This document shows positions 17,610 through 58,505 of a stretch of 64,000 nucleotides of DNA, in pieces (within the stretch, counting starts at the first letter, position 1; the number at the start of each line of letters is the position of its first letter). Origin of the DNA: Pelobacter propionicus DSM 2379 (GTDB taxonomy: Bacteria; Desulfobacterota; Desulfuromonadia; Geobacterales; Pseudopelobacteraceae); assembly GCF_000015045.1 (NCBI RefSeq), contig NC_008609.1, positions 1,417,001 to 1,481,000 on the forward strand. Reading direction: 5' to 3'. The notes beneath the pieces are model-generated. The model worked only from the letters and a program-made list of their open reading frames with translations. It was not told where the DNA came from and searched no databases. The translations under genes were made by a program, and so were the position numbers.

Positions 17610-18899
17610 TCACCTGTCCAGCCCCAGGTCCTGTCTGATGATGGTCTCCAGGGTGGCGTCCAGCAGTTCCTTTCGGCAGTCCACGCAATCCATTGTTCCC
17701 GTCTTCAGCCTGGCCAGGAAGCGGCAGCCGCCGAAGCAGAGCGGCAGGTAGGCGCACTCCAGGCACTCTTCGTTCTTCCACAGGTCCAGATTGTGGGACT
17801 CCCGGTAATCGTTGATCCCCTCGGCCAGGGAGCCGACCTTAAGTGACTCATCCCCCATGAAGATCGGGCACTTGTAGATGCCGCCATCCCAGTTCACCAC
17901 CAGGTCGTTTTCGAACTCCACCACGCAGGCGCCAGCCTTCAGTTTCGGCACCGGGAAGCTGCGGCGGATGGTCTCGGCCCGCAGGAACAGCCCGGCCTGA
18001 AAGGTCCAGGAATCGCCGCTGGCCAGGCAGGCGGAGCCCAGGTCGCCGGCTACGCTTCCGTCGGCCCTTGGCACCACCGGCGAGAAGCCGACCGCCTTGA
18101 ACCTGGCCGGATCGATCCCTTCGGCAATCAGCAGGTCCAAAAGCTCCGGGAAACGGCGGTAGTTCTCCCGGGTGTAGTTGCCCCCCAGGTCGATGGGCAG
18201 GATGTCGTGGATGGCGCGAATGTTCTCCATGATGGTGGCGAAGCTCTCCTGGCCGGAGACGAAGGGGCGCTGGCTGTCGTGGATGTCCGGCGGGCCGTCC
18301 AGGGTGAGGCGCACCGCAGCCAGTCCCAGGGGGAGCAGCTCCTCCACCACGGGCCGGGTCAAAAGCGTCCCGTTGCTGAAGATGTTGAACTGGAACGTCA
18401 CGCCATGTTCACCGGCGGCCCTTTGCAGGGCGGTGGCGATGCGTTTCAGAAGCGTAAGCTGTAGCAGCGCCTCGCCGCCGTAGAAATCCACGGTCAGATC
18501 CAGCCCCTGGGCCATGCGTTCGTTCAGGCGCCGGATCAGCAGGTCGGCAATGGCGTCGTCCATGGTCTGCTCCCCCCGGAAGGGGGCCTCGAAGCAGTAG
18601 GGGCAGGCCAGGTTGCACGCCATGGTCAGGGCGACCACCACCGCCAGATGGCGGCTCTCCTTGTTGATGCGGGTGAAGGTCTCGCGCATCTCCTCCTTCT
18701 CCGCCTCCCGGTCCTCCACCAGCACCCCCAGGCGCTGCAGGGTCTCGCGCTCTTCCTCTTCCATCTCCCCGCCGTCCCGCACCCGCTGCCACAGTTCGTC
18801 GGACAGCTCCATCACGGCGCAGCGCCGGGTGGCCAGGAGCAAAAGTCGCCCCGGCTTGTCCGGGCAGGGGAAGGTGGTGACGTAGTGCGAAAGCTGCAT
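17610..18899 (-). CDS. Radical SAM/SPASM peptide maturase (geopeptide-maturase type), intact copy
   Basis: A 429-residue radical SAM enzyme with a C-terminal SPASM domain, of the kind that modifies ribosomally made peptides. The radical SAM cluster motif CNLACPYC (CxxxCxxC) stands near residue 94, with YGGEAL, the usual glycine-rich SAM-contact segment, about 45 residues later. The SPASM part holds at least eight cysteines, including GACVVEF, YKCPIF, EECLECAYLPLCFGGC and DCVDCRKELL, enough for two auxiliary [4Fe-4S] clusters. From memory this resembles the family named 'geopeptide radical SAM maturase' in Geobacter-like bacteria; this is not checked. GAGGA precedes the ATG. No precursor-like ORF stands next to it: its upstream DNA past about 19,001 is RAYT-type repeat. 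A near-identical truncated copy lies at 21163-22059. Confidence 0.9.
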   Translation of the reverse strand: MQLSHYVTTFPCPDKPGRLLLLATRRCAVMELSDELWQRVRDGGEMEEEERETLQRLGVLVEDREAEKEEMRETFTRINKESRHLAVVVALTMACNLACPYCFEAPFRGEQTMDDAIADLLIRRLNERMAQGLDLTVDFYGGEALLQLTLLKRIATALQRAAGEHGVTFQFNIFSNGTLLTRPVVEELLPLGLAAVRLTLDGPPDIHDSQRPFVSGQESFATIMENIRAIHDILPIDLGGNYTRENYRRFPELLDLLIAEGIDPARFKAVGFSPVVPRADGSVAGDLGSACLASGDSWTFQAGLFLRAETIRRSFPVPKLKAGACVVEFENDLVVNWDGGIYKCPIFMGDESLKVGSLAEGINDYRESHNLDLWKNEECLECAYLPLCFGGCRFLARLKTGTMDCVDCRKELLDATLETIIRQDLGLDR

Positions 18900-19000
18900 G
18901 AATTTTTCCTCGCAGGCATTGAATGATGTGAACTCGTTGCTTTTAGTTCAGGCGGAAGGTGTCAGGAGAAAGGTGAATGCGTTGTTACCATCTTCAATTC

Positions 19001-19016
19001 TTCAATGCCTGACCCC
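19001..19016 (+). repeat. RAYT-type repeat TTCAATGCCTGACCCC, copy 1
   Basis: A 16-base unit found three times in 2.2 kb: here, inverted at 20023-20038 (where it contains the transposase stop codon) and at 21170-21185 (where it replaces the end of the truncated maturase). Shorter relatives (GGCATTGAA, TTCAATGCC) occur near 18914, 21018 and 21103. Confidence 0.7.
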
Positions 19017-19146: not shown

Positions 19147-19653
19147 TCAGCCGGACATTTCTGGCTGCTGTGGCGACACCATACCCTTCAGCGAGAGTGT
19201 CAGGGTCATCGGTTGCGTGGGGGAGGCAATGAAGCCGTGGTGTTCATAGAACATCTTGGCTTCTTCGGATATGGCATGGACGAGCAAACCTCGAATTCCG
19301 AGAATTCCGCCCGCCTGCATCGTTCTGATAACGGCATCCTGGAGCAGCGCAACGCCGAGTCCCTTGCGGTGAAAATCACGATCAACGGCCAGGCGTCCAA
19401 GAATGGCCATGGGAACCGGATCGGGCATGTTGCGCCGAAGAGGCCCGGGTGTATCGCTTACCGCCAGCGCTCCGGATGCCAAACAGTAATAGCCGACAAC
19501 ACGTTGCCCTTCCGCTGCAACATAGGTACGGGAAGCTCCGCTTACCTGGTTGGAATATGCCCGGTGTCGCAGCCAGTCGTCCAGACTGGCAACGCCGCAG
19601 GAAAAGCTGCCGGTGTGGTGCTCTCTCGTCAGCAGTGCCGGAGCTGATATCAT
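19147..19653 (-). CDS. GNAT acetyltransferase toxin (TacT/AtaT-like)
   Basis: A 168-residue GNAT-fold protein. Family members paired with DUF1778 antitoxins acetylate the amino group of charged tRNAs and stop translation. Visible features: FSCGVASLDDWLRHRAYSNQ near the N-terminus, typical of this toxin group, the acetyl-CoA loop 'VDRDFHRKGLGVALLQDA' (RxxGxG/A type), and 'MFYEHHGF' near the C-terminus. The ATG at 19653 overlaps the antitoxin stop as TAATG and has GGGAG five bases upstream; a GTG at 19665 is less likely. The pair stands between the two maturase copies. Confidence 0.88.
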   Translation of the reverse strand: MISAPALLTREHHTGSFSCGVASLDDWLRHRAYSNQVSGASRTYVAAEGQRVVGYYCLASGALAVSDTPGPLRRNMPDPVPMAILGRLAVDRDFHRKGLGVALLQDAVIRTMQAGGILGIRGLLVHAISEEAKMFYEHHGFIASPTQPMTLTLSLKGMVSPQQPEMSG

Positions 19654-19940
19654 TACGGCTCCCACGGCCTGCTGGCCTGCATCAGGCGGTTAAACCCTTC
19701 GCCACTGGGGGGATGGTCGAGAGCTTGGAGAAAGTGCTCGTATGTTTCACGATCCACTCGCACCAGGGTCTGGTCAAGCACTGCATCCTCGGCCGCCCGC
19801 CGTGCCGCATCGATCATGAAATCCGAGCGTGTTTTCCCCTGTGTCTTCGCCGCCCTGTCAATCAAGGCTCGGATATCGCCCCGTACGCGCAGATTTACGG
19901 CACAGGTTCGGCTGTCAGTTTCTGGTGAGGTCGATGGCAT
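19653..19940 (-). CDS. DUF1778 antitoxin (TacA-like)
   Basis: A 95-residue antitoxin with an N-terminal ribbon-helix-helix DNA-binding part (VNLRVRGDIRALIDRAA, followed by KTQGKTRSDFMIDAARRAAE) and a C-terminal toxin-neutralising tail. The start at 19940 (MPSTSPETD) is chosen for its GAGAGGG site; the open frame extends to 19994 without support. Antitoxin first, toxin second with a one-base overlap is the standard order. A palindrome at 19987-20005 is a likely site for autorepression. Confidence 0.88.
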   Translation of the reverse strand: MPSTSPETDSRTCAVNLRVRGDIRALIDRAAKTQGKTRSDFMIDAARRAAEDAVLDQTLVRVDRETYEHFLQALDHPPSGEGFNRLMQASRPWEP

Positions 19941-19986
19941 GGTACCCTCTCTTTCTTTCGATACAGGTAATAGCACACCAATCGTT

Positions 19987-20005
19987 AGATACACAATGTA
20001 TATCT
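19987..20005 (-). promoter_or_regulatory. Palindromic operator candidate of the toxin-antitoxin operon
   Basis: AGATACACAATGTATATCT is an almost perfect palindrome 47 bases before the antitoxin start. On the minus strand it overlaps a possible -35 (TTGTGT), with CTATTA 17 bases on as a weak -10. Inference: binding site of the ribbon-helix-helix antitoxin. Confidence 0.45.
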
Positions 20006-20022: not shown

Positions 20023-20038
20023 GGGGTCAGGCATTGAA
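20023..20038 (-). repeat. RAYT-type repeat TTCAATGCCTGACCCC, copy 2
   Basis: Inverted relative to the copies at 19001 and 21170. The TGA inside the unit is the stop codon of the Y1 transposase, so the repeat forms the element's left end. Confidence 0.7.
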
Positions 20039-20986
20039 GGTTTGAACCTGCCGCAGCTTCCGGCAGAGACGCGAGATCTTGTCGGCAATCTCCGGATCGT
20101 TTCTGCGCCGGTTTTCCATCCGCTTTGCCGCGCAGCTCAGCGTCGATGGCTCGCGACGCAGCCGGAGCGCCAATTCGGCAAGTGTTCCGCTGCCGAGTTC
20201 CAGTGTGGCCCAGGCGGCGAGGCTGCGAGCTTCGGATGCCGTGTGTTCCTGCCCCTGTGCGTACAGGCGCTTCTCATTGACGCCGCAGAGCCTCTTCACC
20301 GCCTCGATGATGGTGTCCATATCCGGTTTCCTCTCAAGGGGAGCGTCCTGTCGGATCAGGATCGTCTCCGTGAAGAAGGTGTCTCCCAACAGGCGGCTGT
20401 CGATGCTCTTCTCGCCGTGGAATTCCGGCCGTCTTCCCTCGTCTGCTCGCTCGGTGACAAAGCGTGAGAATAGGTCGCGCGCAGTGTCGGCCGAAGAAGA
20501 GAACAGCGAAAGCACCGGCTCGGGGTCGATCCAGGCGACGGTCTCTTTTCCCAGATACGCCCCGTGGCTGCTCCAGGGGTACGCCTCGGCACTGGCCGTC
20601 ATTCCCGCCCGGACCGGATTCAGGTGGATGTAAGCGGCCAACTCCAGCAGAAAGGCATCCGCGTCGACCAGGATGGCCTTGTACCTTCCCTGGAAGAGGT
20701 GCCCCGTTTGTCTATGGCGCCGGTTATGCCACTGGGTGTAGCGCTGGGAGATGCACTGCATGATCCGCGAAAGAGGGATGTCGGCGACCTGGATTGCCAG
20801 GTGGATGTGGTTGCTCATCAGGCAGAAGGCGAGTATCCGGTGTCGGTAGCGATCCTGTGAAGCCGCGATGATTTCGTACAGCCTGCGACGGTCCCGGTCG
20901 TCGGTAAAGATGTTTTGGCGCGCGTTGCCACGCATGATCACGTGATAGACAGCACCGGGTTCATGGATGCGCGTTTTCCTTCCCAT
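20027..20986 (-). CDS. REP-associated tyrosine (Y1/HUH) transposase, RAYT
   Basis: A 319-residue single-strand transposase of the IS200/IS605-related RAYT group. It opens with HEPGAVYHVIMRGNARQNIF, carries the HUH metal site in 'CLMSNHIHLAIQV', a candidate catalytic Tyr in 'SQRYTQWHNRRHR' and 'GHLFQGRYKA', then LAAYIHLNPVRAGM, all typical of the family. The C-terminal third has a DnaA-like helix-turn-helix (ARSLAAWATLELGSGTLAEL). The frame is intact, but no good ribosome-binding site precedes the ATG. Its last codons lie inside the repeat at 20023-20038; sister repeats flank the neighbouring rearrangement, so this protein is the likely agent of the local reshuffling. Confidence 0.9.
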   Translation of the reverse strand: MGRKTRIHEPGAVYHVIMRGNARQNIFTDDRDRRRLYEIIAASQDRYRHRILAFCLMSNHIHLAIQVADIPLSRIMQCISQRYTQWHNRRHRQTGHLFQGRYKAILVDADAFLLELAAYIHLNPVRAGMTASAEAYPWSSHGAYLGKETVAWIDPEPVLSLFSSSADTARDLFSRFVTERADEGRRPEFHGEKSIDSRLLGDTFFTETILIRQDAPLERKPDMDTIIEAVKRLCGVNEKRLYAQGQEHTASEARSLAAWATLELGSGTLAELALRLRREPSTLSCAAKRMENRRRNDPEIADKISRLCRKLRQVQTFNA

Positions 20987-21162: not shown

Positions 21163-22059
21163 TCAATGGTTCAATGCCTGACCCCGCGGGGTGCCCCCCA
21201 GGTCGCCGGCCAGGCTTCCGTCGGCCCGGGGCACCACCGGCGAGAAGCCGACCGCCTTGAACCTGGCCGGGTCGATCCCCCGGGCGATCAACAGGTCCAG
21301 AAGCTCCGGGAAGCGGCGGTAGTTTTCGCGGGTGAAGTTGCCCCCCAGGTCGATGGGCAGGATGTCATGGATGGCGTGGATGTTCTCCATGATGGCGGCG
21401 AAGCTCCCCCTGCCGGAGACGAAGGGGCGCTGGCTGTCGTGGATGTCCGGCGGGCCGTCCAGGGTGAGGCGCACCGCAGCCAGCCCCAGGGGGAGCAGCT
21501 CCTCCACCACGGGCCGGGTGAGCAGGGTGCCGTTGCTGAAGATGTTGAACTGGAACGTCACGCCATGCTCAAGGGCGGCCCTTTGCAGGGCGGTGGCGAT
21601 GCGCTTCAGAAGCGTAAGCTGCAGCAGTGCCTCGCCACCGTAGAAATCCACGGTCAGATCCAGCCCCTGGGACATGCGCTCGCTCATGCGCCGGATCAGC
21701 AGGTCGGCAATGGCGTCGTCCATGGTCTGCTCCCCCCGGAAGGGGGCCTTGAAGCAGTAGGGGCAGGCCAGGTTGCACTCCATGGTCAGGGCCGCGACAA
21801 CGGACAGGTGGCGGCTCTCCCGGTTGATCCGGTCGAAGGTCTCCCGCATCTCCTCCTTCTCCGCCTCCCGGTCATGCACCAGCACCCCCAGGCGTTGCAG
21901 GGTCTCGCGCTCTTCCTCTTCCATCTCCCCGCCGTCCCGCATTCGCTGCCACAGTTCGTCGGACAGCTCCATCACGGCGCAGCGCCGGGTGGCCAGGAGG
22001 AGCAGACGCCCCGGCTTGTCCGGGCAGGGGAAGGTGGTGACGTAACATGATGGCTGCAT
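21163..22059 (-). pseudogene. Second radical SAM maturase copy, SPASM domain lost
   Basis: A 298-residue product whose first 290 residues match the intact copy at 17610-18899 with roughly twenty-odd substitutions (my alignment by eye). The CNLACPYC cluster motif and YGGEAL are kept. After 'AGDLG' the match ends and nine unrelated residues (TPRGQALNH), encoded by a RAYT-type repeat, lead to a stop; the roughly 130-residue SPASM region is missing. The start at 22059 has AAGGAG upstream. It retains the promoter side of the locus, including the candidate precursor peptide gene. It is probably inactive as a maturase, although a radical SAM core without SPASM cannot be excluded. Confidence 0.85.
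21170..21185 (+). repeat. RAYT-type repeat TTCAATGCCTGACCCC, copy 3
   Basis: Same 16 bases as at 19001-19016. It sits exactly where the second maturase copy loses its homology to the first. Confidence 0.7.
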
Positions 22060-22247
22060 GGTGGCTCCTTGCGGGGGCATATTTTGAAGATTTGAACCTG
22101 CTGCTGTTTGTTCAGGCGTAACGTGCCGGTCGAAAAGAGAGGGTGTTGGTTTCATCTTCACTGCCAGACCCCACGCTTACACAGGATGGTGCCGTAGTGA
22201 AGAACATCGGATGACCGTGTGTGGGAGAACCGCACAGGGTGATGAGG

Positions 22248-22268
22248 GAGGGCAGGGGGGCTGCCCTC
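22248..22268 (-). terminator. Hairpin between candidate precursor and maturase copy
   Basis: GAGGGCAG (22248-22255) and CTGCCCTC (22261-22268) form an 8-bp stem with a five-base loop, 35 bases after the small peptide gene on the minus strand. No T run follows, so it may be an attenuator that lets the peptide be made in excess over the maturase. Confidence 0.35.
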
Positions 22269-22302: not shown

Positions 22303-22434
22303 TTACCGCTTGAGTCTTACGATTGCTGCTGTACAAGTGCATGCGAGTTCCGATTCCGGCTCATGCCCCTCTGTCAAGACATGCAGATCCTCTTTTCGAG
22401 CCTGCTCTTTTTGTCGTTCCTTGGACACGGGCAT
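22303..22434 (-). CDS. Candidate radical-SAM-modified precursor peptide, 43 aa
   Basis: A short gene read codon by codon: it begins MPVSKERQKEQARKEDLHVL, continues TEGHEPESELACTCTAAIVR and ends LKR. It is preceded by AAAGGGGGTG; a GTG two codons on is an alternative start. The first thirty residues are charged and helical, as in RiPP leaders, and the last thirteen are hydrophobic with a Cys-Thr-Cys pair, as in a core peptide. It lies upstream of the truncated maturase on the same strand and divergent from a TonB receptor. Function is inference from size, composition and position; I cannot confirm that it belongs to a named precursor family. Confidence 0.55.
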   Translation of the reverse strand: MPVSKERQKEQARKEDLHVLTEGHEPESELACTCTAAIVRLKR

Positions 22435-22523
22435 CACCCCCTTTCAATAAAATGTTTGTGTTCGTTCATACAGTCTGGACAAACGGCTTTTGAATCTGAT
22501 ATGGTGCTGATTCGAACTATGCC

Positions 22524-24404
22524 ATGAATTTCATTAAACCGCCACATATTTTGAATTCCACACTATTTTCCCTTCTTCTGCTGTTTGGGGTGGCGCTTCC
22601 CTGTGCTCGGGCTGAGAAGGCGGAGGATACCAGTGCGCTGTTCAGTGCTTGGCAGGAATCTTCATCCTCCAGCGCCACCCGCTCCCCCAAGCCGCTCTCC
22701 CTGACAGCCGAAAATACGACAATAATCACCCAAAAGGAGATCGAGTCCCTCAACGCCCATACCCTGGCCGACGTTCTGGCCACAATACCGGGCATCCAGA
22801 CTCAAAATTATGGCGCAGCTGGTGGCCTTACAAGCGCCAGCATCCAGAGTGCGAGAAATTATCACGCGTTGGTGATGGTCGATGGGATCCCTCTAAACAA
22901 CTTGAGTGAAAACTTCTCCGATGTGGCCATGGTCCCGGCGCGGATCATCGAGCGGATCGAGGTTGTCAAGGGGGCGGCTTCCTCGGCCTGGGGACAGGCG
23001 CTGGGCGGGGTGATCAACGTTATCACCAAAACGCCGGATCAGAGAAAGATTGGCGGTGTTGCAACCTCCTCCTATGGCGAGGGGGCGACGGCCGACAGCA
23101 GCATTGAACTGAGCGGAACAGTTGACCGCCTGGGCTACTATTTCTCCGGCGGGTATCTGGGATTCAAGAATATCCCTCAACATATCACCACCGATTCCAA
23201 TAACGTCTATGCCAAGCTGACCTACGATCTTTCGGACCAGGGACAGGTGTGGGGTACGTTCAGCCACAGTCATGGCAACCGCACCAATCTGTATATTCCC
23301 CGCTCCGACTGGGACCTGAGGGAAGAACAGAAAACCACCTATATCTACGCCTCCCTCGGCATGCGGCGCAAACTGAGCGACAGCCTGGAGCTGGAAATCA
23401 GCGGACGCCACGCCTACCGCAACTTTGATACCGTTGACACCAACATCAGCGACGGTTTGCCCTGGTCCTGGTCATCCCAGCCCCGCCTGTTGACCAAGGA
23501 AAGGGTCTACGGCGCCAGCGCCAAGCTTATCTGGAGAGAGAGTAACAACCTGCTGGTTGTGGGGGGAGATTTCGAGCATGTCAAGCTCTCCGCAAACGGG
23601 ACTTATGACTATCCGCTCACGCCCGTTTCCCGTTCGGAAGACCGCTGGGGTTTTTTCCTGAACGATACGTACACTATTGGCGACCTGGCAGTGACCGTCG
23701 GCGCCCGTTTCGACCGCCCCAAGACCACATCCGACCAGTTCAGCCCCTCCCTGGGCGTCACCTACAAACTGAGTGAAACCACCCTGCTGCGCGGCTACAC
23801 GGCGCGCGGCTACAGCCTCTGGGCGTTGACATTTGACGACACGCCGGCGGAAAAGGTCTGGACATCCCAAATTGGGATCGAAACTACTGCTGTCCCGTAT
23901 CTGTGGCAGAAATTGACTCTCTTCCGCAACCAGATGTGGAGTTTTACGACTTGGAATGATAGCGCCGGCATATACGAGTCGGACCGTCGTATGGCGTTGG
24001 GAGTGGAATATGAGATTCGCACCACGCCCGTTTTCAATACCTCCATTGGAGCCGGTTACACCTTTACGGATACGGAGTTGTCAAAAAACCATGACTACGA
24101 GTCAGGAGTTCCCCGTCATACCGTGCAGGTGTCGTTGCGCTACGATGACAAGACCTTTCGCGGTGTCCTGACCGGACGCCACATCTTCTGGAACACGCAA
24201 CCAAGTTCCGAACCGCTCTATAACGGTGACTATGGCGGTATGATCTGGGACCTGCACCTGGGCGCCACGTTGGTGAAGCGTGAGGAGCGGTCGCTGGAAG
24301 TGTTCTTCTCCGGTCGCAATCTCTTCGACGGATCACAAACACCAAGTAATTATTGCGTCTATCCCGGCCGCTGGTTCGAGGGTGGAGTGAGGGTACGGTT
24401 TTGA
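22524..24404 (+). CDS. TonB-dependent outer-membrane receptor (BtuB/CirA-like)
   Basis: A 626-residue receptor with a signal peptide (LLLLFGVALPCARA), a plug domain (TITQKEIESLN-like start, DVLATIPGIQTQNYG, VMVDGIPLNN, IERIEVVKGAASSAWG, GGVINVITK) and a 22-strand-type barrel ending in Phe (GGVRVRF), the sorting signal for outer-membrane proteins. No TonB box can be fixed with certainty. The substrate is unknown. The downstream gene starts at the stop codon of this one (TTGA) and encodes a periplasmic binding protein, followed by a sensor kinase, so the three may form an uptake or sensing unit. It is divergent from the candidate peptide gene. Confidence 0.9.
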   Translation: MNFIKPPHILNSTLFSLLLLFGVALPCARAEKAEDTSALFSAWQESSSSSATRSPKPLSLTAENTTIITQKEIESLNAHTLADVLATIPGIQTQNYGAAGGLTSASIQSARNYHALVMVDGIPLNNLSENFSDVAMVPARIIERIEVVKGAASSAWGQALGGVINVITKTPDQRKIGGVATSSYGEGATADSSIELSGTVDRLGYYFSGGYLGFKNIPQHITTDSNNVYAKLTYDLSDQGQVWGTFSHSHGNRTNLYIPRSDWDLREEQKTTYIYASLGMRRKLSDSLELEISGRHAYRNFDTVDTNISDGLPWSWSSQPRLLTKERVYGASAKLIWRESNNLLVVGGDFEHVKLSANGTYDYPLTPVSRSEDRWGFFLNDTYTIGDLAVTVGARFDRPKTTSDQFSPSLGVTYKLSETTLLRGYTARGYSLWALTFDDTPAEKVWTSQIGIETTAVPYLWQKLTLFRNQMWSFTTWNDSAGIYESDRRMALGVEYEIRTTPVFNTSIGAGYTFTDTELSKNHDYESGVPRHTVQVSLRYDDKTFRGVLTGRHIFWNTQPSSEPLYNGDYGGMIWDLHLGATLVKREERSLEVFFSGRNLFDGSQTPSNYCVYPGRWFEGGVRVRF

Positions 24405-25294
24405 GAATACTCATCGCTCTCATACTCGCCCTGGCGACCCTGCTCCCCTGCCTGGCCCAGGCCTACGACGTGCTGCTCTTGGTCAGCCGCCGCGACCAGG
24501 CCTCGGAAGAGGTGCTGAAAGGCTTCCGCGCTGGCTGCTCCTCCTCCCACCGCACCCTGGTGCTGTCCGATTACGCCGAGGTCGACCTGACCCGCATCCT
24601 GCGGGAGGAGAATCCCCGCCTGATCCTGACCCTGGGCGATGCTGCTCTGAAGGCGGCCCGCCGGGTGAGCCGCACGCCGGTGGTCTCGCTGATGGCCCTG
24701 GGTGTGCGTCAGCAGGCTGCCCTGCAGTCAAACCTGACCGGCATCGATATGTTCGCCTCGCCGGAGAGCTATATGGAACTGTTCAAGAAGCTGAAGGTGA
24801 GCCGCGTGGGGGTAGTGTACGATCAGGCCAGGAGTGGCTGGTACCTGCGCAAGGCCCGCCAGGCGGCGGAAAAGGCCGGTATCACCCTGGTGACCCGCGA
24901 GGTGGATTCGTCCCGCGATGCCCTGGAAAAACTCGCCTCCCTGTCCGGCAAGGTGGACGCCCTCTGGATGCTGCCGGACGTCACGGCGGTGACCCGCGAA
25001 ACCAGCGAGGCTTACTTCCGCTTCGGCCAGAGCCAGTCGGTGCCGGTGGTCTCCTTCTCCGCCAGTTACCTGGGGCTGGGCGCCGGCGCGGTGGTGGAGA
25101 TCGACCGCAAGGACCTGGGGCGCCAGGCCTGCGATATGGTTGATGATCTGCTGAAAAAGGGCAGGGGCTCCGACATGCCCCTGGCATTCCCCCGCAACAC
25201 CTCCACCAGAATGAACCCCGACGTGATCAGGCACCTGGGTTCCGGGATCGTGTCTGGCCACCAGATCAGCCTGGCTGCGCTGTTCGGGGAGTAG
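24401..25294 (+). CDS. ABC-type substrate-binding protein (PF04392-like)
   Basis: A 297-residue secreted protein: signal peptide (ILIALILALATLLPCLAQA) then a two-lobed binding fold with LILTLGDAALKAARRV, RVGVVYDQ, DALWMLPDVTAVT and VPVVSFSASYLGLGAGAVVE, typical of the ABC_sub_bind family. The TTG at 24401 overlaps the receptor stop (TTGA) and has GTGAGGG upstream, so the genes are coupled. No permease or ATPase gene is nearby; the protein probably hands a ligand to the sensor kinase encoded next, or serves a transporter elsewhere. Confidence 0.85.
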   Translation: MRILIALILALATLLPCLAQAYDVLLLVSRRDQASEEVLKGFRAGCSSSHRTLVLSDYAEVDLTRILREENPRLILTLGDAALKAARRVSRTPVVSLMALGVRQQAALQSNLTGIDMFASPESYMELFKKLKVSRVGVVYDQARSGWYLRKARQAAEKAGITLVTREVDSSRDALEKLASLSGKVDALWMLPDVTAVTRETSEAYFRFGQSQSVPVVSFSASYLGLGAGAVVEIDRKDLGRQACDMVDDLLKKGRGSDMPLAFPRNTSTRMNPDVIRHLGSGIVSGHQISLAALFGE

Positions 25295-25528: not shown

Positions 25529-27544
25529 GTGTCACCACTTGCGCATCTGAACACATTCCGCTACAGCTTCCAGTACAAACTCTTCCTGATCTTTACCCTT
25601 TTGACCGGGCTGGTCTGCATCCTCTTCAGTACCCTGTATGTTGTTAGCGAAATCAGTGACGCGCGCAGCGTCGCAGCGGAGCAGCTGCGCCTGCAGGCGG
25701 CCGGGCTGGGGGATGAAATCCGTCTGGCGCTGTACGCCGGAAACCGCGAGACCCTGAACCAGTTTGCGCGGGATGCCGCCCGCAATCCCCTTATTCGCCG
25801 GGTGGTGATCAGCGACGCCGCTGGCAGGGGGCTGGCCGTCATCGTTTCGGAAAAGAGCGGCGACCGGTCGGAGCCGATCCGCGAGACCGTGACCGTTGCC
25901 GGCAGTACCATGGGACTCTCCGTGGACGATGCCCTGAACGGCGAACGGGAAAAGGCGCCATCCGCCATCGGCACGGTGCGGCTGGAGCGGACAAGCGCCG
26001 ATCTGGTGGCCTCGGCGCGCCAGATGACGTTGACCATCTGCTTGCTGGGATTCGGTTTCTGGCTATTGGTGTCCCTGCTCTGCCATCAGGTGCTGCGCAG
26101 GGTGACCGCCTCCTTCAACGCCCTGATGCGCGGCCTGGAACGGGTGCGGCAGGGACAGTACGATACGCGCATCGCGGTGCGCAGCGACGACGAGCCGGGC
26201 AGGGCGGGACACGCGGTCAACGAGCTGGCTGCCTCCCTGCGGATGCGGGAAGAGGAGAACAGGCGCCTCAACCAGGAGCTGATGGATGCCATGGAGGAGG
26301 AACGCGCTGCCCGTAACCAGCTGGCCGCCATAAACCAGACCCTGGAACGGGAGATGGCCGAACGCATCCAGGCCGAACAGGCGCTGCGCGAGAGCGAGAG
26401 CAACCTGCGCACCCTGATGGACATGATGCCGGTGGGGGTCTCCTGGTCACAACCGGACGGCAGGGTGGAGTATGTCAACGACTTCATCGTCAAGTCCAGC
26501 GGCTTCGGCAGGGACGAGTTCCCCATGGCCGACGACTGGTTCTGCCGGGTGTTCCCCGACCCTGAGTATCGCGCCCACATCGCCGAACTGCGCCTGGACG
26601 CCCTGGCCTGCGCCGCAGCTGGGGAAGAGATCCCCTCCTACGAGGCGCGGGTGACCTGCCGGGACGGTTCGGTGCGCCATGTGCTCTTCCGGCACCAGAT
26701 CTGCATGGGGCGCAACGTGGCCATCATGGTGGATATCACCGAGCGCGAGCTGTTCCAGGAACAGATGATCAAGAGCCAGAAGCTGGAATCCCTGGGTGTC
26801 CTGGCGGGCGGGATCGCCCACAATTTCAACAACGTGCTTACCGGCGTGATGGGCTATATCTCCTTTGCGCGCATGTTCCTGGATCCGTCCCACAAGTCCC
26901 ACGCGGCCCTGGGCCATGCCGAGGAGGCCTCCCGCCGGGCGGCCGGCATGGCCAACCAGCTGCTGACCTTTGCCCGCGGAGGGGAGCCGATCAAACGCCG
27001 GGCGTCGCTGAAGAGGCTGGTGGATGAGTGCCTCTCCCTGGCCCTGAACGGCACTACGGTGCGCCGGGTGGTGGATATCCCGGACGACCTGCACGCGGTG
27101 ATGGCCGACGAAGGGCAGATCACGCAGGTGTTCCACAACATCATCCTGAACGCAGCCCAGGCAATGGGCGAGGGAGGGGTGCTGAGGGTGCGGGCCGAGA
27201 ACATCAGCATGGCCCGCGGCCGCCGCCCCGGTGCGCCCCAGGAACCCTACATCAGGATCTCCTTCACCGATCAGGGCGAGGGCATCCCCGCCACGATCCT
27301 GCCCAAGATCTTCGACCCCTACTTCACCACTAAATCCACCGGAACCGGCCTGGGGCTGGCGTCGGCCCACTCCATCGTCAGCAGGCACGGCGGCATGATC
27401 GCGGTGGATTCCGAGCCGGGCAGGGGTACCTGCTTCTCCATCTCGCTCCCTTCCACCGGCGAGAGGCTGCTGCCGGGGGGGGATGTCACCCGCAGGCTGA
27501 ACCCCGGCGGCCAGGGGGGGGGGCAGGATTCTGGTGATGGATGA
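25529..27544 (+). CDS. Sensor histidine kinase (HAMP-PAS-HisKA-HATPase), frameshifted before its receiver
   Basis: A 671-residue membrane kinase: a first membrane segment near 17-40, a periplasmic sensor region of about 130 residues, a second membrane segment near 170-190, HAMP, coiled coil, a PAS domain (about 290-405), the H-box GGIAHNFNNVLTG and ATPase boxes FTDQGEGIPATILPKIFDPY, STGTGLGLASAH. The chain ends in a meaningless tail (QDSGDG) just after a run of ten G (27514-27523). One G fewer would join it in frame to the receiver domain encoded at once downstream ([16 protein letters not shown]), giving a hybrid kinase of about 802 residues. It probably senses through the substrate-binding protein encoded before it. 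Confidence 0.9.
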   Translation: MSPLAHLNTFRYSFQYKLFLIFTLLTGLVCILFSTLYVVSEISDARSVAAEQLRLQAAGLGDEIRLALYAGNRETLNQFARDAARNPLIRRVVISDAAGRGLAVIVSEKSGDRSEPIRETVTVAGSTMGLSVDDALNGEREKAPSAIGTVRLERTSADLVASARQMTLTICLLGFGFWLLVSLLCHQVLRRVTASFNALMRGLERVRQGQYDTRIAVRSDDEPGRAGHAVNELAASLRMREEENRRLNQELMDAMEEERAARNQLAAINQTLEREMAERIQAEQALRESESNLRTLMDMMPVGVSWSQPDGRVEYVNDFIVKSSGFGRDEFPMADDWFCRVFPDPEYRAHIAELRLDALACAAAGEEIPSYEARVTCRDGSVRHVLFRHQICMGRNVAIMVDITERELFQEQMIKSQKLESLGVLAGGIAHNFNNVLTGVMGYISFARMFLDPSHKSHAALGHAEEASRRAAGMANQLLTFARGGEPIKRRASLKRLVDECLSLALNGTTVRRVVDIPDDLHAVMADEGQITQVFHNIILNAAQAMGEGGVLRVRAENISMARGRRPGAPQEPYIRISFTDQGEGIPATILPKIFDPYFTTKSTGTGLGLASAHSIVSRHGGMIAVDSEPGRGTCFSISLPSTGERLLPGGDVTRRLNPGGQGGGQDSGDG

Positions 27545-27938
27545 CGAGGAAAGCATCCGCGAGTTCGCCCGGGAGAGCCTGCTGTTCCTGGGCTACCGGG
27601 TGAGCTGCTGTGCCGACGGCAGGGATGCGCTGCGGCTCTACCGGGCGGCCAATGAGGCCGACGACCCGTTCTTCGCCGCCATCCTGGACCTGAACGTGGC
27701 GGGCGGCATGGGGGGCGAGGAGGCGGCCCGCCGGATCCTGGATTTCGATCCATCGGCCAGATTGATCGTATCCAGCGGCTATGCCTATGACCCGATCATG
27801 GCGGCGTACCGGCAGCACGGCTTCTGCGCTGCCGTGTCAAAGCCGTACAAGGTCGACCAGTTGGAGCAGGAATTGAACTTCCTGAAGCGGGAGTCGCCGG
27901 AGTCGGAATCCTGCATGGAGTGCGTGCCCCTGACTTAG
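27534..27938 (+). CDS. Receiver domain split from the kinase by a poly-G frameshift
   Basis: A response-regulator receiver domain of about 130 residues: acidic MDDEES, a likely phospho-acceptor Asp in '[11 protein letters not shown]', SSGYAYDP and Lys in '[11 protein letters not shown]'. The frame is open back into the kinase gene ([10 protein letters not shown]), and no ribosome-binding site precedes the GTG at 27534, so I think it is naturally the C-terminal part of the kinase. It could still be made from the ATG at 27537 by coupled translation. Confidence 0.8.
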
Positions 27939-27992: not shown

Positions 27993-28069
27993 CGGGGAGT
28001 AGCGCAGCCTGGCAGCGCACCTGCCTTGGGAGCAGGGGGTCGCTGGTTCGAATCCAGTCTCCCCGACCA
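27993..28069 (+). tRNA. tRNA-Pro (anticodon UGG)
   Basis: A 77-base tRNA with encoded CCA: acceptor CGGGGAG (27993-27999)/CTCCCCG (28059-28065), anticodon stem CCTGC/GCAGG, loop CTTGGGA giving TGG at 28027-28029, T arm GCTGGTTCGAATCCAGT. Its 3' 46 bases are repeated at 37858-37903, marking it as the integration site of the element that follows. Confidence 0.96.
28024..28069 (+). repeat. Attachment site, left (within tRNA-Pro)
   Basis: 46 bases from the anticodon loop to CCA of tRNA-Pro, identical to 37858-37903. The mismatch just outside (G at 28023, T at 37857) fixes the left limit, and the bases after CCA differ too (G versus C). Confidence 0.92.
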
Positions 28070-37727: not shown

Positions 37728-37857
37728 TGATATGTGGTTGTCAATGAAACACTATGAAATAGCATAACGAATAACATCATAATAAACAAGAATAAAATGC
37801 TGAATCAGGTTACAAGGAAGAAAGGTAGCGAAATACTATGATTCGCAGGAATCACTT

Positions 37858-37903
37858 CCTTGGGAGCAGGGGGTCGCTGGTTCGAATCCAGTCTCCCCGA
37901 CCA
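37858..37903 (+). repeat. Attachment site, right
   Basis: 46-base exact copy of the tRNA-Pro 3' part at 28024-28069. It lacks the 5' half of a tRNA, so it is not a functional tRNA gene. Confidence 0.92.
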
Positions 37904-56086: not shown

Positions 56087-58111
56087 CTAGAAGCGGTACT
56101 CCAGCTTGAAGGTGACCGTGCGGCCATCCTGGGGGATCAGGGCCACCGGATAGCTGGTCTCCACATGATCGTTGGATCCGGGATTGGTGTAGCTCTCGTT
56201 AAGCAGGTTGCGCACCGAGATGGTCGCGTCCAGGTTTTTGACCAGCAGGTTGCGGGCCAGGGCGGTCAGGTGCAGCAGGGTGTAGTCGCCCCCCTTGACC
56301 CCGGCCACCAGGGTTTCCACCTGGGACAGGTACTGCAGTTCTCCCGACAGGGTCAGGCGGCGGTTGAGGAAGTCGCGGGAGAGTTTCGCCTTGATCAACG
56401 ATTCAGGCGAGTTGGTCAGGCCTGTGTCGTTCTCCACATCCCGCGCCCGTTGATAGCTGTAGCCCAGCCTGCCGGACCAGGCCTCCCAACTCCACTCCCG
56501 CTCCAGTTCGAAGCCGGTGATCCTGACCCTGTCCGTATTCTCGAAGCGCATGGTGCCGTCGCTCCCCACGGCCTGGTTGATCAGGTTCTTGATGGAGTAA
56601 TGGAACCAGGTCATTGAGAGCCGCTGGCCCGGGCCGTGGTAGTACTCCAGCACCAGCTCGTGGCTGAGCATGGACTCCTCTTTCAGATCCGGGTTGTCGT
56701 GTATGTTGCTGCCGGAATCCTTGTAGTCGGTCTCGTAAGCGTTGGGGGCGCGAAATGACCTGCCGAACAGGTACTTGGCAACCAGGTCGTCAGTGATCTT
56801 GTAGATCAGGGCCGCCTTGGGGTTGAAGGTGTGCAGGGAGGGGGAGAAGTAGTCATAGCGTACCCCCGCATCCAGCAGCAGGTTGGGGGAAATGCGCCAC
56901 TCGTTCTGCAGGAAAACTCCCAGGCTGTGCTGGGGGGAGTGCAGGTTCAGGGTGGTGCCGTCCGCCTTCGTCTTTGTGCGCTGGTCCCTGAGCAGGGCAT
57001 AGTGGTAGTCGATCCCCCCCACCAGGTGGTTGTCGAAGGGGAGTTTCCTGCTGATCACCAGCTCTCCCCCCAGCACGGCGCTTTTGGTGTAATCGTAAAA
57101 TGTCTGGTCGGCCGGGGTATAGATGTAGCGTTCCTTATAGAAGTAGCCGTTGTAGTAGGTGCGCGCCTTCAGGGAATCCCCCGAGCCGTTTCCTCTCGTG
57201 TAGCTCAGGTCGGCGAAGGAACGCTCGTCCCAGGAAGTGTTGCCGTCATCGTTGAAAACGACGTCAAAGGCGCCGGTGGGCACCCCCTTCCTGCGGCGGG
57301 AGAAACCGCCCAGCAGGGTCAGGTCGCCCTTCTCGGCCTTGAGGAAGAAGCTGCCGTTCCCCTCGTAGTCGCAGTCCCTGCTCCTGCCGTTGTTGTTGGC
57401 CGGATCGTCGTAGGCGCTGAAATACAGGTCGTTGCCCGGCGCGTGGTCGAGGGTGCCGGAGACCAGCAGGGACCAGTCCTTGCCCCGGGGATCTGCCTCG
57501 GCGGTGATCCGTCCGCTTACCCTGGTGCGGGTGTCCACCGAAGAGGCGACGTTGACCCCGTTTCTCTTGGCCGAGGTGGTGATGACGTTCACCGTCAGCA
57601 GGAAGGCGTTGTTGCCGTACAGCGAGTTGCTCGGCCCGCGGATGATCTCGATGCGCTCCACCAGGTCCATGTCCAGGGGGAAGTCCGTTCCCAGCGGCGC
57701 CTGGTGGTACACCTCGTCGTTCAGCCTGATGCCGTCCAGAAGCACCAGTACCCGGGTGTTGTAGTCCCCCGGCATGGAAAATCCCCGGTAGCCGATGTAC
57801 GCGTAATTCCGGTCATAGGTCATGTTGATGCCGGTCTCCCCCTGCAACGCCTCGGACAGGGTGCGGTAGCCGTATTTTCGGATGGCGGCGGCGTCGATGA
57901 TGCTGACCCTGGCCGGCGCCTCGCTGGCCTCCTGCTCGTAGCGGGAACTGCCGGTGACGGACATGATCTTGACCTGCAGCAGTTCCTCCAGGGAAAGCTG
58001 GGTGAGCTCCTCCCCGTCATCAAAGACAAGGACCGGTGAACAGGAGAGCAGGCCGAACAGCAGAATGGTCCGTGCCATGCGGAGAGCCTGGCAAAGCAGG
58101 GGGTGCCCCAT
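56087..58111 (-). CDS. TonB-dependent outer-membrane receptor
   Basis: A receptor of about 674 residues. A hydrophobic N-terminus (ARTILLFGLLSCSPVLVF) serves as signal; the mature part begins with LTQLSLEELLQVKIMSVTGS, a pattern seen in many TonB receptors of this group, then the plug (SIIDAAAIRKYGYRTLSEAL; VLVLLDGIRLND; VERIEIIRGPSNSLYG) and barrel, ending in Phe (TFKLEYRF). The start is uncertain: ATGs at 58195, 58111 and 58078 all lack good ribosome-binding sites; 58111 gives the most natural signal peptide. The ligand is unknown; no transporter genes stand near. Confidence 0.88.
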   Translation of the reverse strand: MGHPLLCQALRMARTILLFGLLSCSPVLVFDDGEELTQLSLEELLQVKIMSVTGSSRYEQEASEAPARVSIIDAAAIRKYGYRTLSEALQGETGINMTYDRNYAYIGYRGFSMPGDYNTRVLVLLDGIRLNDEVYHQAPLGTDFPLDMDLVERIEIIRGPSNSLYGNNAFLLTVNVITTSAKRNGVNVASSVDTRTRVSGRITAEADPRGKDWSLLVSGTLDHAPGNDLYFSAYDDPANNNGRSRDCDYEGNGSFFLKAEKGDLTLLGGFSRRRKGVPTGAFDVVFNDDGNTSWDERSFADLSYTRGNGSGDSLKARTYYNGYFYKERYIYTPADQTFYDYTKSAVLGGELVISRKLPFDNHLVGGIDYHYALLRDQRTKTKADGTTLNLHSPQHSLGVFLQNEWRISPNLLLDAGVRYDYFSPSLHTFNPKAALIYKITDDLVAKYLFGRSFRAPNAYETDYKDSGSNIHDNPDLKEESMLSHELVLEYYHGPGQRLSMTWFHYSIKNLINQAVGSDGTMRFENTDRVRITGFELEREWSWEAWSGRLGYSYQRARDVENDTGLTNSPESLIKAKLSRDFLNRRLTLSGELQYLSQVETLVAGVKGGDYTLLHLTALARNLLVKNLDATISVRNLLNESYTNPGSNDHVETSYPVALIPQDGRTVTFKLEYRF

Positions 58112-58505
58112 GGATAAAGGCGATTTCGCGGCTATGGGGTGGGTGGGTGCAGGCATGCGGTTTCCGGCGTTTCTCCTGGGCTTTTGCATGGCCATGGTTG
58201 CCCGAGCGGCACTCCCGGGGAATGGTGGCGGATAATCGGGAAAAACAGAGTAACGTTAAAGTCTTTACCATAGGTATGGGGGTGAGTCCATGCAAAAACT
58301 GTGTGGCTGTTACCGCGCTTTCGAGGCGTCCCTGATGCGGATTCGATGCTGTAGTAATGGAGACCATGTCACGATGATGTCCCCGGTTTAATTGCTTTGA
58401 CTCTTTTTATGGTTGGCGTAGAATCCCGGCCCGCCTGACCCGCTGCGGGCCGGTTTGCAGGGGCGAGGTGGTGTGGGATACCTGGATGTATGGAAGGAGT
58501 GTTCG
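58112..58505. other. Divergent promoter region
   Basis: About 390 bases between the TonB receptor and the TauE-type permease. It holds a strong promoter and a 5' leader hairpin for the permease (58397-58453). The receptor side shows no promoter I can defend. Confidence 0.5.
58397..58453 (+). promoter_or_regulatory. Promoter and leader hairpin of the TauE-type gene
   Basis: TTGACT (58397-58402), 16-base spacer, TAGAAT (58419-58424). Just after the presumed start of transcription CCGGCCCGC (58426-58434) pairs with GCGGGCCGG (58445-58453). The hairpin may be regulatory or protect the mRNA. Confidence 0.55.

Follow-up and report, generated by a model that had tools for sequence, protein, structure and literature searches.

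The locus

The window, i.e. the whole stretch of 64,000 nucleotides that was analysed, carries on its minus strand a short open reading frame (22303-22434) which is very probably a real precursor, that of a small enzyme-modified peptide of a bacterial class about which little is known. It lies between a divergent gene for a TonB-dependent receptor and two copies of a radical SAM maturase gene, only one of which is intact. The features of the locus are as follows.

17610-18899, minus strand: intact geopeptide radical SAM/SPASM maturase (TIGR04280, 696.8 bits; TIGR04085 SPASM, 51.1 bits)
19003-19016, plus strand: REP-like repeat CAATGCCTGACCCC (motif match)
20023-20036, minus strand: REP-like repeat (motif match)
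20027-20986, minus strand: REP-associated tyrosine transposase between the maturase copies (NF047646, 83.6 bits, cut-off 80; PF01797)
21163-22059, minus strand: truncated radical SAM maturase copy without the SPASM region (TIGR04280, 421.6 bits, positions 1-287 of 428; alignment)
21172-21185, plus strand: REP-like repeat at the 3' end of the truncated maturase (motif match)
22248-22268, minus strand: hairpin between precursor and maturase copy, without a T-run (fold GAGGGCAG-CCCCC-CTGCCCTC)
22303-22434, minus strand: predicted geopeptide-type precursor with a Cys-x-Cys core, CTC (profile rank and own-genome profile match)
22435-22444, minus strand: ribosome-binding sequence AAAGGGGGTG (direct reading; aligned with relatives)
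22476-22482, minus strand: element TTGTCCA upstream of the precursor, common to many relatives (7-mer count)
22524-24404, plus strand: divergent TonB-dependent receptor (PF07715, PF00593; 851 bits with a cassette-receptor profile that includes it)
24353-25294, plus strand: ABC-type substrate-binding protein (PF04392, 57.1 bits; 412 bits with a cassette profile that includes it)
25529-27544, plus strand: sensor histidine kinase with a HAMP domain (PF02518 and PF00672 pass their cut-offs, HisKA stays below)
27534-27938, plus strand: single-domain response regulator (PF00072, 38.8 bits, cut-off 30.2)

The preliminary description had placed a candidate precursor upstream of, and on the same strand as, a maturase copy of the geopeptide type, with a hairpin between the two. 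The hairpin is real, albeit without a T-run, and the type of the maturase is borne out by the TIGR04280 scores of both copies. The position of the precursor stands as well, with the correction that the adjacent copy is truncated and that the intact one is found at 17610-18899. Because the copy next to the precursor has lost its SPASM part, maturation of the peptide, if the system works, would be in trans, by the intact maturase, which is 3.4 kb away and has no precursor of its own.

Other features of the window are recorded here as separate observations. A GNAT acetyltransferase gene and a TacA1-type antitoxin gene, likely a toxin-antitoxin pair, occupy positions 19147-19994, flanked by REP repeats that lie between the maturase copies. 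A 49-base direct repeat (28021-28069 and 37855-37903, 98 percent identical) has as its first copy the 3' end of a tRNA-Pro, so that an integrated element between the repeats is possible. A second TonB receptor is encoded at 56087-58195, which is not of the cassette type described below at E<=1e-80.

The candidate precursor

By direct reading, the open reading frame translates as MPVSKERQKEQARKEDLHVLTEGHEPESELACTCTAAIVRLKR, and its sequence, its strand and the AAAGGGGGTG in front of the ATG are as originally described. The length of 43 residues, counted from that ATG, is another matter. Only a few bases separate the ATG at 22434 from the GGGGG, and the ribosome-binding sequence is common, by alignment, to the precursor and nine relatives; since most relatives start further downstream of this shared sequence than the window ATG, the GTG at 22428 (41 residues, MSKERQ...) appears to be the likelier start.

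Upstream of the precursors, the 7-mer TTGTCCA was found within 160 bases in 20 of 74 regions (window included), against 0.5 expected from dinucleotide shuffles, and the shorter TGTCCA in 25 of 74, at -30 to -77 before the precursors. A sigma-54 promoter at this place found no support overall: the median best score was 4.6, as compared with 6.0 in shuffled sequence, although a few loci did score high.

The identity of the precursor is supported by a profile of 57 relatives from which the window peptide was excluded. It gave the peptide 19.6 bits (E 5.1e-5), the first rank among 1,579 open reading frames of the window, the next best reaching 7.5 bits and the best of 45,210 open reading frames of reversed sequence 11.6 bits. 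With a profile of 58, the window peptide included, it was the only match at E<=0.001 in its own genome (an assembly of 4,241,119 bases in 3 contigs). The next-best candidate there (E 0.07) has an internal stop; thus, no better precursor, which would have spoken against the original proposal, was found elsewhere in the genome.

The peptide found no match in Pfam, NCBIfam or PHROGs, nor in a plasmid collection. TIGR04281 was tried as a precursor model and set aside, as it describes a different family (peripla_PGF_1). TIGR04229, the NCBI model of the geopeptide precursor, matches 30 of the 58 aligned precursors at E<=10, does not match the window peptide, has no match at E<=0.001 in its genome, and passes its curated cut-off (30 bits) in 7 of 57 genomes, the present one not among them; the profile of 58 finds a precursor in 45 of the 57. 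The window peptide is, therefore, not a member of TIGR04229 as curated. It does carry a leader motif and a C-terminal Cys motif and lies upstream of a (truncated) TIGR04280 gene on the same strand, which makes it a member, with a rare core type, of the wider geopeptide-type precursor family defined here.

Relatives of the precursor

Contigs were scanned with 25 aligned maturases, and the best 80 of 301 loci were used, 79 of them belonging to relatives in Geobacter and Desulfuromonadales or to Deltaproteobacteria not further specified, and the last to a Nitrospinia MAG. After four loci with less than 400 bases upstream (L045, L063, L076 and L107) had been set aside, a precursor-like peptide was recognised upstream of 75 of the 76 testable maturases (among the best 80 of 301 loci), 73 by motif search, one (L109) by a Cys-Cys search and one (L078) by reading. 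In the Nitrospinia locus (L118; maturase at 961-2256, 42 percent identical), no precursor was recognised in the 966 upstream bases. The 57-peptide profile recovers the same 75 loci, a partly circular result as most of them trained it, and adds three copies at other places in L077, L100 and L117.

The expectation that homologous small open reading frames would stand beside other maturases of the family was thus confirmed, whereas that of a conserved CTC core behind a variable leader needs amending in both its parts. The leader motif [LIVMF]x[VI][LIVH]xxG, beside the core, is present in 75/75 relatives (a partly circular count, a similar motif having found most of them), while the core is of the CC type in 69 relatives, CxC in 3, CCC in 2 and CxCC in 1. 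Two more CxC peptides come from the window and from an orphan locus, L135. In 71 of the 77 peptides, the last Cys is 7-10 residues away from the C-terminus (range 2-12), and the core sequence after the Cys motif varies widely.

Across 57 whole genomes (the present one included), a set that partly overlaps the training loci, the profile of 58 finds 59 precursors, 56 of them within 3.5 kb of a maturase match. The three others are in G008, where the contig ends soon after, in G011, 178 bases from a contig end, and in G004, the last being a true orphan (L135). Of the 47 genomes with a maturase, 44 also have a precursor, versus 1 of the 10 that lack a maturase (Fisher p 2e-7, each genome counted as independent); this single precursor is on a contig of 6,126 bases, which runs on for about 430 bases past it.

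Between precursor and maturase, the window has a long spacer of 246 bases. Among 73 spacers no longer than 400 bases (window included; L055, with a 490-base spacer, dropped, and L078 and L109 outside the set), a hairpin is predicted in 70 versus a mean of 10.0 in mononucleotide-shuffled copies, and a T-rich tail follows it in 38 versus 0.4.

Two of the related loci deserve separate mention. At L135:6429-6542, a CxC precursor (CIC) is found beside a TonB receptor and a binding protein, without an adjoining maturase, two maturases being encoded elsewhere in that genome. At L078:8849-10000, the precursor is about 1.1 kb from the maturase, with repeated GGGTCGCCC motifs and a transposase-like open reading frame (called by eye and without a Pfam match) in between, an arrangement that parallels the window.

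The maturase

The intact maturase matches TIGR04280 over its full length (positions 1-427 of 428) and above the curated cut-off of 400 bits, and the TIGR04085 SPASM match covers residues 325-404. A CxxxCxxC motif, a SPASM region and an RRE-like N-terminus, by which radical SAM/SPASM RiPP maturases are recognised, are all found in it. The cysteines invariant in 34 aligned maturases are 95, 99 and 102, and 291, 325, 344, 379, 382, 388, 392 and 408. The structural model (mean pLDDT 92.8) finds its best PDB matches in 5why and 5wgg (TM-scores 0.65-0.70; about 20 percent identity), i.e. an enzyme that is also the nearest solved structure by sequence, the title of which names thioether bond formation, and which is known as CteB. 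In our reading, the N-terminal 75 residues are RRE-like by the order of their elements, a reading drawn solely from secondary-structure order and the full-length structure match; the modelled fold would support a leader-guided modification, perhaps a thioether. In a phage collection, four records contain distant maturase matches, at most 32.1 percent identical.

The receptor, binding protein and kinase cassette

A stronger result than the precursor call itself is the set of receptor, binding protein and kinase that travels with the geopeptides. Where 4 kb or more of upstream sequence is present (67 loci), a TonB receptor of the window type is encoded between -5.5 and +6 kb of the maturase in 67/67, a PF04392 binding protein in the same range in 60/67 and a kinase, counted from -8.5 kb, in 51/67; the cassette profiles were built from the same loci they counted, and the last two counts were possibly lowered by contig ends. 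Of these 67 loci, 55 have the receptor gene on the upstream side, divergently oriented and no more than 3.5 kb away, and most of the other 12 have it downstream of the maturase. Beyond these genes, a cluster of sigma-54-type regulators (one member scanned) is found in 26 of 81 loci; no exporter or leader peptidase is evident, and no other cluster of open reading frames occurs in more than 7 of the 81, a count in which the clustering could split diverse families.

The association is also seen when counted from the side of the receptor. The genome of the window encodes 15 plug-domain proteins and has 5 PF04392 matches, of which only the pair adjoining the precursor reaches the cassette thresholds; indeed, the single cassette-type receptor at E<=1e-80 is the one beside the precursor (the profiles include this pair). 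Among the 47 genomes with a maturase, 45 have a cassette-type receptor, versus 3 of the 10 without a maturase (Fisher p 1.5e-5). Out of 83 such receptors in the 57 genomes, 62 have a maturase match no more than 6.5 kb away, or 64 when a precursor within 3 kb is also counted; the 19 others have neither nearby, although one of them (L136) has a remnant. Conversely, 59 of 67 maturase matches have a cassette-type receptor within 6.5 kb, the other 8 including contig pieces. In L136 (6509-6715), a leader-like sequence overlaps a maturase remnant in another frame and adjoins a cassette-type receptor, which looks like the relic of a natural deletion.

Receptor and maturase have, moreover, been inherited together. 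In all 21 testable cases (28 labelled), the receptor is closer to the receptor of the locus elsewhere whose maturase is nearest than to that of the second locus in its own genome, and the distances of receptors and maturases are correlated over the 67 loci (Mantel r 0.68; none of 2,000 permutations as high). This co-inheritance shows a stable unit, not a mechanism, since linked inheritance alone gives the same pattern. No single clade unites the receptors of CxC peptides, the smallest group that contains them all having 17 tips, 12 of them with CC; they pair the window with L089 and L135 with L057. L135, with a precursor, a receptor and a binding protein but no adjoining maturase, shows that the receptor can stay with the peptide alone.

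Proposed function and alternatives

Taken together, the genes of the conserved cassette, being those of a receptor and a sensor, suggest that the cell imports the mature peptide or senses it from outside. Our main reading, to which we give a probability of roughly 0.6, is that the open reading frame encodes a geopeptide-type RiPP precursor matured in trans, the product of which would be a ligand taken up or sensed by the cells that make it. Within the intact maturase (17610-18899), the RRE-like N-terminal domain would bind the leader motif in trans, and the SPASM radical SAM centre would modify the Cys-x-Cys region, most likely by a thioether as in CteB. The product would then leave the cell by an unlinked route, be captured by the producer's own TonB receptor and be bound in the periplasm by the binding protein, which would report it to the histidine kinase and response regulator. 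Such a peptide ligand could be either a metal-binding peptide or a signal. Against uptake or sensing count the lack of a conserved exporter among the 81 loci, the 19 of 83 receptors that stand alone, the receptors in 3 of 10 maturase-free genomes, the 8 of 67 maturases without one and the congruent trees that linked genes give without any functional link; PF04392, too, also contains ordinary transport proteins.

A broader version, in which geopeptides in general would be the RiPP ligands of a self-contained circuit of release, return through the TonB receptor, periplasmic binding and readout by the histidine kinase, is put forward tentatively and is, in our estimate, rather less probable than its contrary. 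If true, it would amount to a Gram-negative relay for a peptide pheromone or for the sensing of metals, widespread among the relatives of Geobacter. With its conserved receptor, binding protein and kinase, the orphan peptide family becomes a system of uptake or sensing that can be tested, in a group of environmental anaerobes.

The alternative that survives best, although it is unlikely, is that the product serves as a redox cofactor inside the cell or in the periplasm, in the manner of PQQ or mycofactocin, the receptor importing the product of others or being only loosely linked. SPASM enzymes make cofactors too, and the lack of an evident exporter among the 81 loci would fit a product that stays inside. 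There is also a precedent for the import, in that PQQ enters through the TonB receptor PqqU (PMC12124388), and a PQQ transporter is a weak match of the window receptor (E 6e-5). The wide variation of the core after the Cys motif is, however, unlike a cofactor of fixed structure, and no further family that might use such a cofactor occurs in more than 7 of the 81 loci.

It has also to be considered whether the system is decaying in this strain, with the adjacent maturase broken by a REP-linked duplication and the precursor a relic. The maturase copies share 18037-18996 and 21197-22160 at 89 percent DNA identity, a stretch that takes in about 100 bases before the start codons, with the precursor outside. 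The repeat CAATGCCTGACCCC has 3 matches in the window versus 0.09 expected, and a 15-base REP form with at most one mismatch occurs in 9 places genome-wide, three of them at the maturase locus; in our reading, the pair probably arose by a REP-linked duplication with 3' loss in one copy. That the truncated copy ends at a REP repeat, that a broken remnant exists elsewhere (L136) and that changes polarised with L089 are 17 nonsynonymous to 15 synonymous in the truncated lineage versus 10 to 20 in the intact one (7 unresolved) all speak for decay. The branch difference is, however, small, the copies have dS 0.213 and dN 0.047 over 286 codons (dN/dS 0.22), an intact maturase is present, and the precursor retains its leader motif, its Cys-x-Cys, a type shared with L089, and its C-terminal length; a dead system seems improbable to us.

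Somewhat more doubtful still is an antimicrobial that enters competitors via TonB receptors, with the linked receptor and sensor serving recognition or immunity. Known peptide antibiotics do enter in this way, and variable cores with co-inherited receptors would be in keeping with it, but no immunity gene or exporter recurs among the 81 loci, and kinase and binding protein fit sensing better. Finally, that a frame so short, and without a match in Pfam, NCBIfam or PHROGs, arose by chance is very hard to reconcile with its 19.6 bits, as against at most 11.6 in the 45,210 control frames, and with a position between TonB receptor and maturase that is the same as in relatives. A peptide ligand taken up or sensed by its producer remains our preferred reading.

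Comparison with known systems

The nearest characterised enzyme, of the CteB type (5wgg, 5why), resembles the intact maturase in combining radical SAM and SPASM parts and in being its closest relative by sequence and fold, and differs from it by an identity of about 20 percent; the precursor of CteB itself is of the SCIFF type, unlike a geopeptide-type precursor. With the geopeptide system of TIGR04229/TIGR04280, the window shares a maturase over the TIGR04280 cut-off, and departs from it in a peptide that TIGR04229 does not match and that has Cys-x-Cys instead of Cys-Cys. This variant and a maturase presumed to act in trans are natural tests of substrate recognition.

In the open-licence literature, no paper was found for 'geopeptide', a result from which absence from print cannot be inferred, nor one that joins radical SAM RiPPs and TonB receptors with Geobacter or histidine kinases. 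TIGR04280 and TIGR04229 are not mentioned among the matches listed, and among those listed for the broader literature on such systems no title describes a geopeptide-TonB system. PMC4289311 and PMC3023750, on RiPP mining in anaerobes and on mycofactocin, mention Geobacter in passages that contain nothing on the geopeptide locus.

Methanobactin gene clusters encode ribosomally derived copper-binding peptides, and TonB-dependent receptors are mentioned with them 12 times (PMC3621798); in these points they are akin to the proposed geopeptide-type system. In the case of PQQ, the likeness is that the product is taken up by a TonB receptor, PqqU (PMC12124388). The TonB receptor has a role with methanobactin too, but the modifying enzymes are different and produce heterocycles, and we know of no radical SAM maturase in those clusters. 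PQQ is the product of a radical SAM/SPASM pathway, yet a small fixed cofactor, and to our knowledge without a linked binding protein and kinase. LuxP/LuxQ, as far as we know, involves other protein families and another ligand, with neither TonB receptor nor RiPP; its likeness to the cassette lies in a periplasmic binding protein placed next to a sensor kinase.
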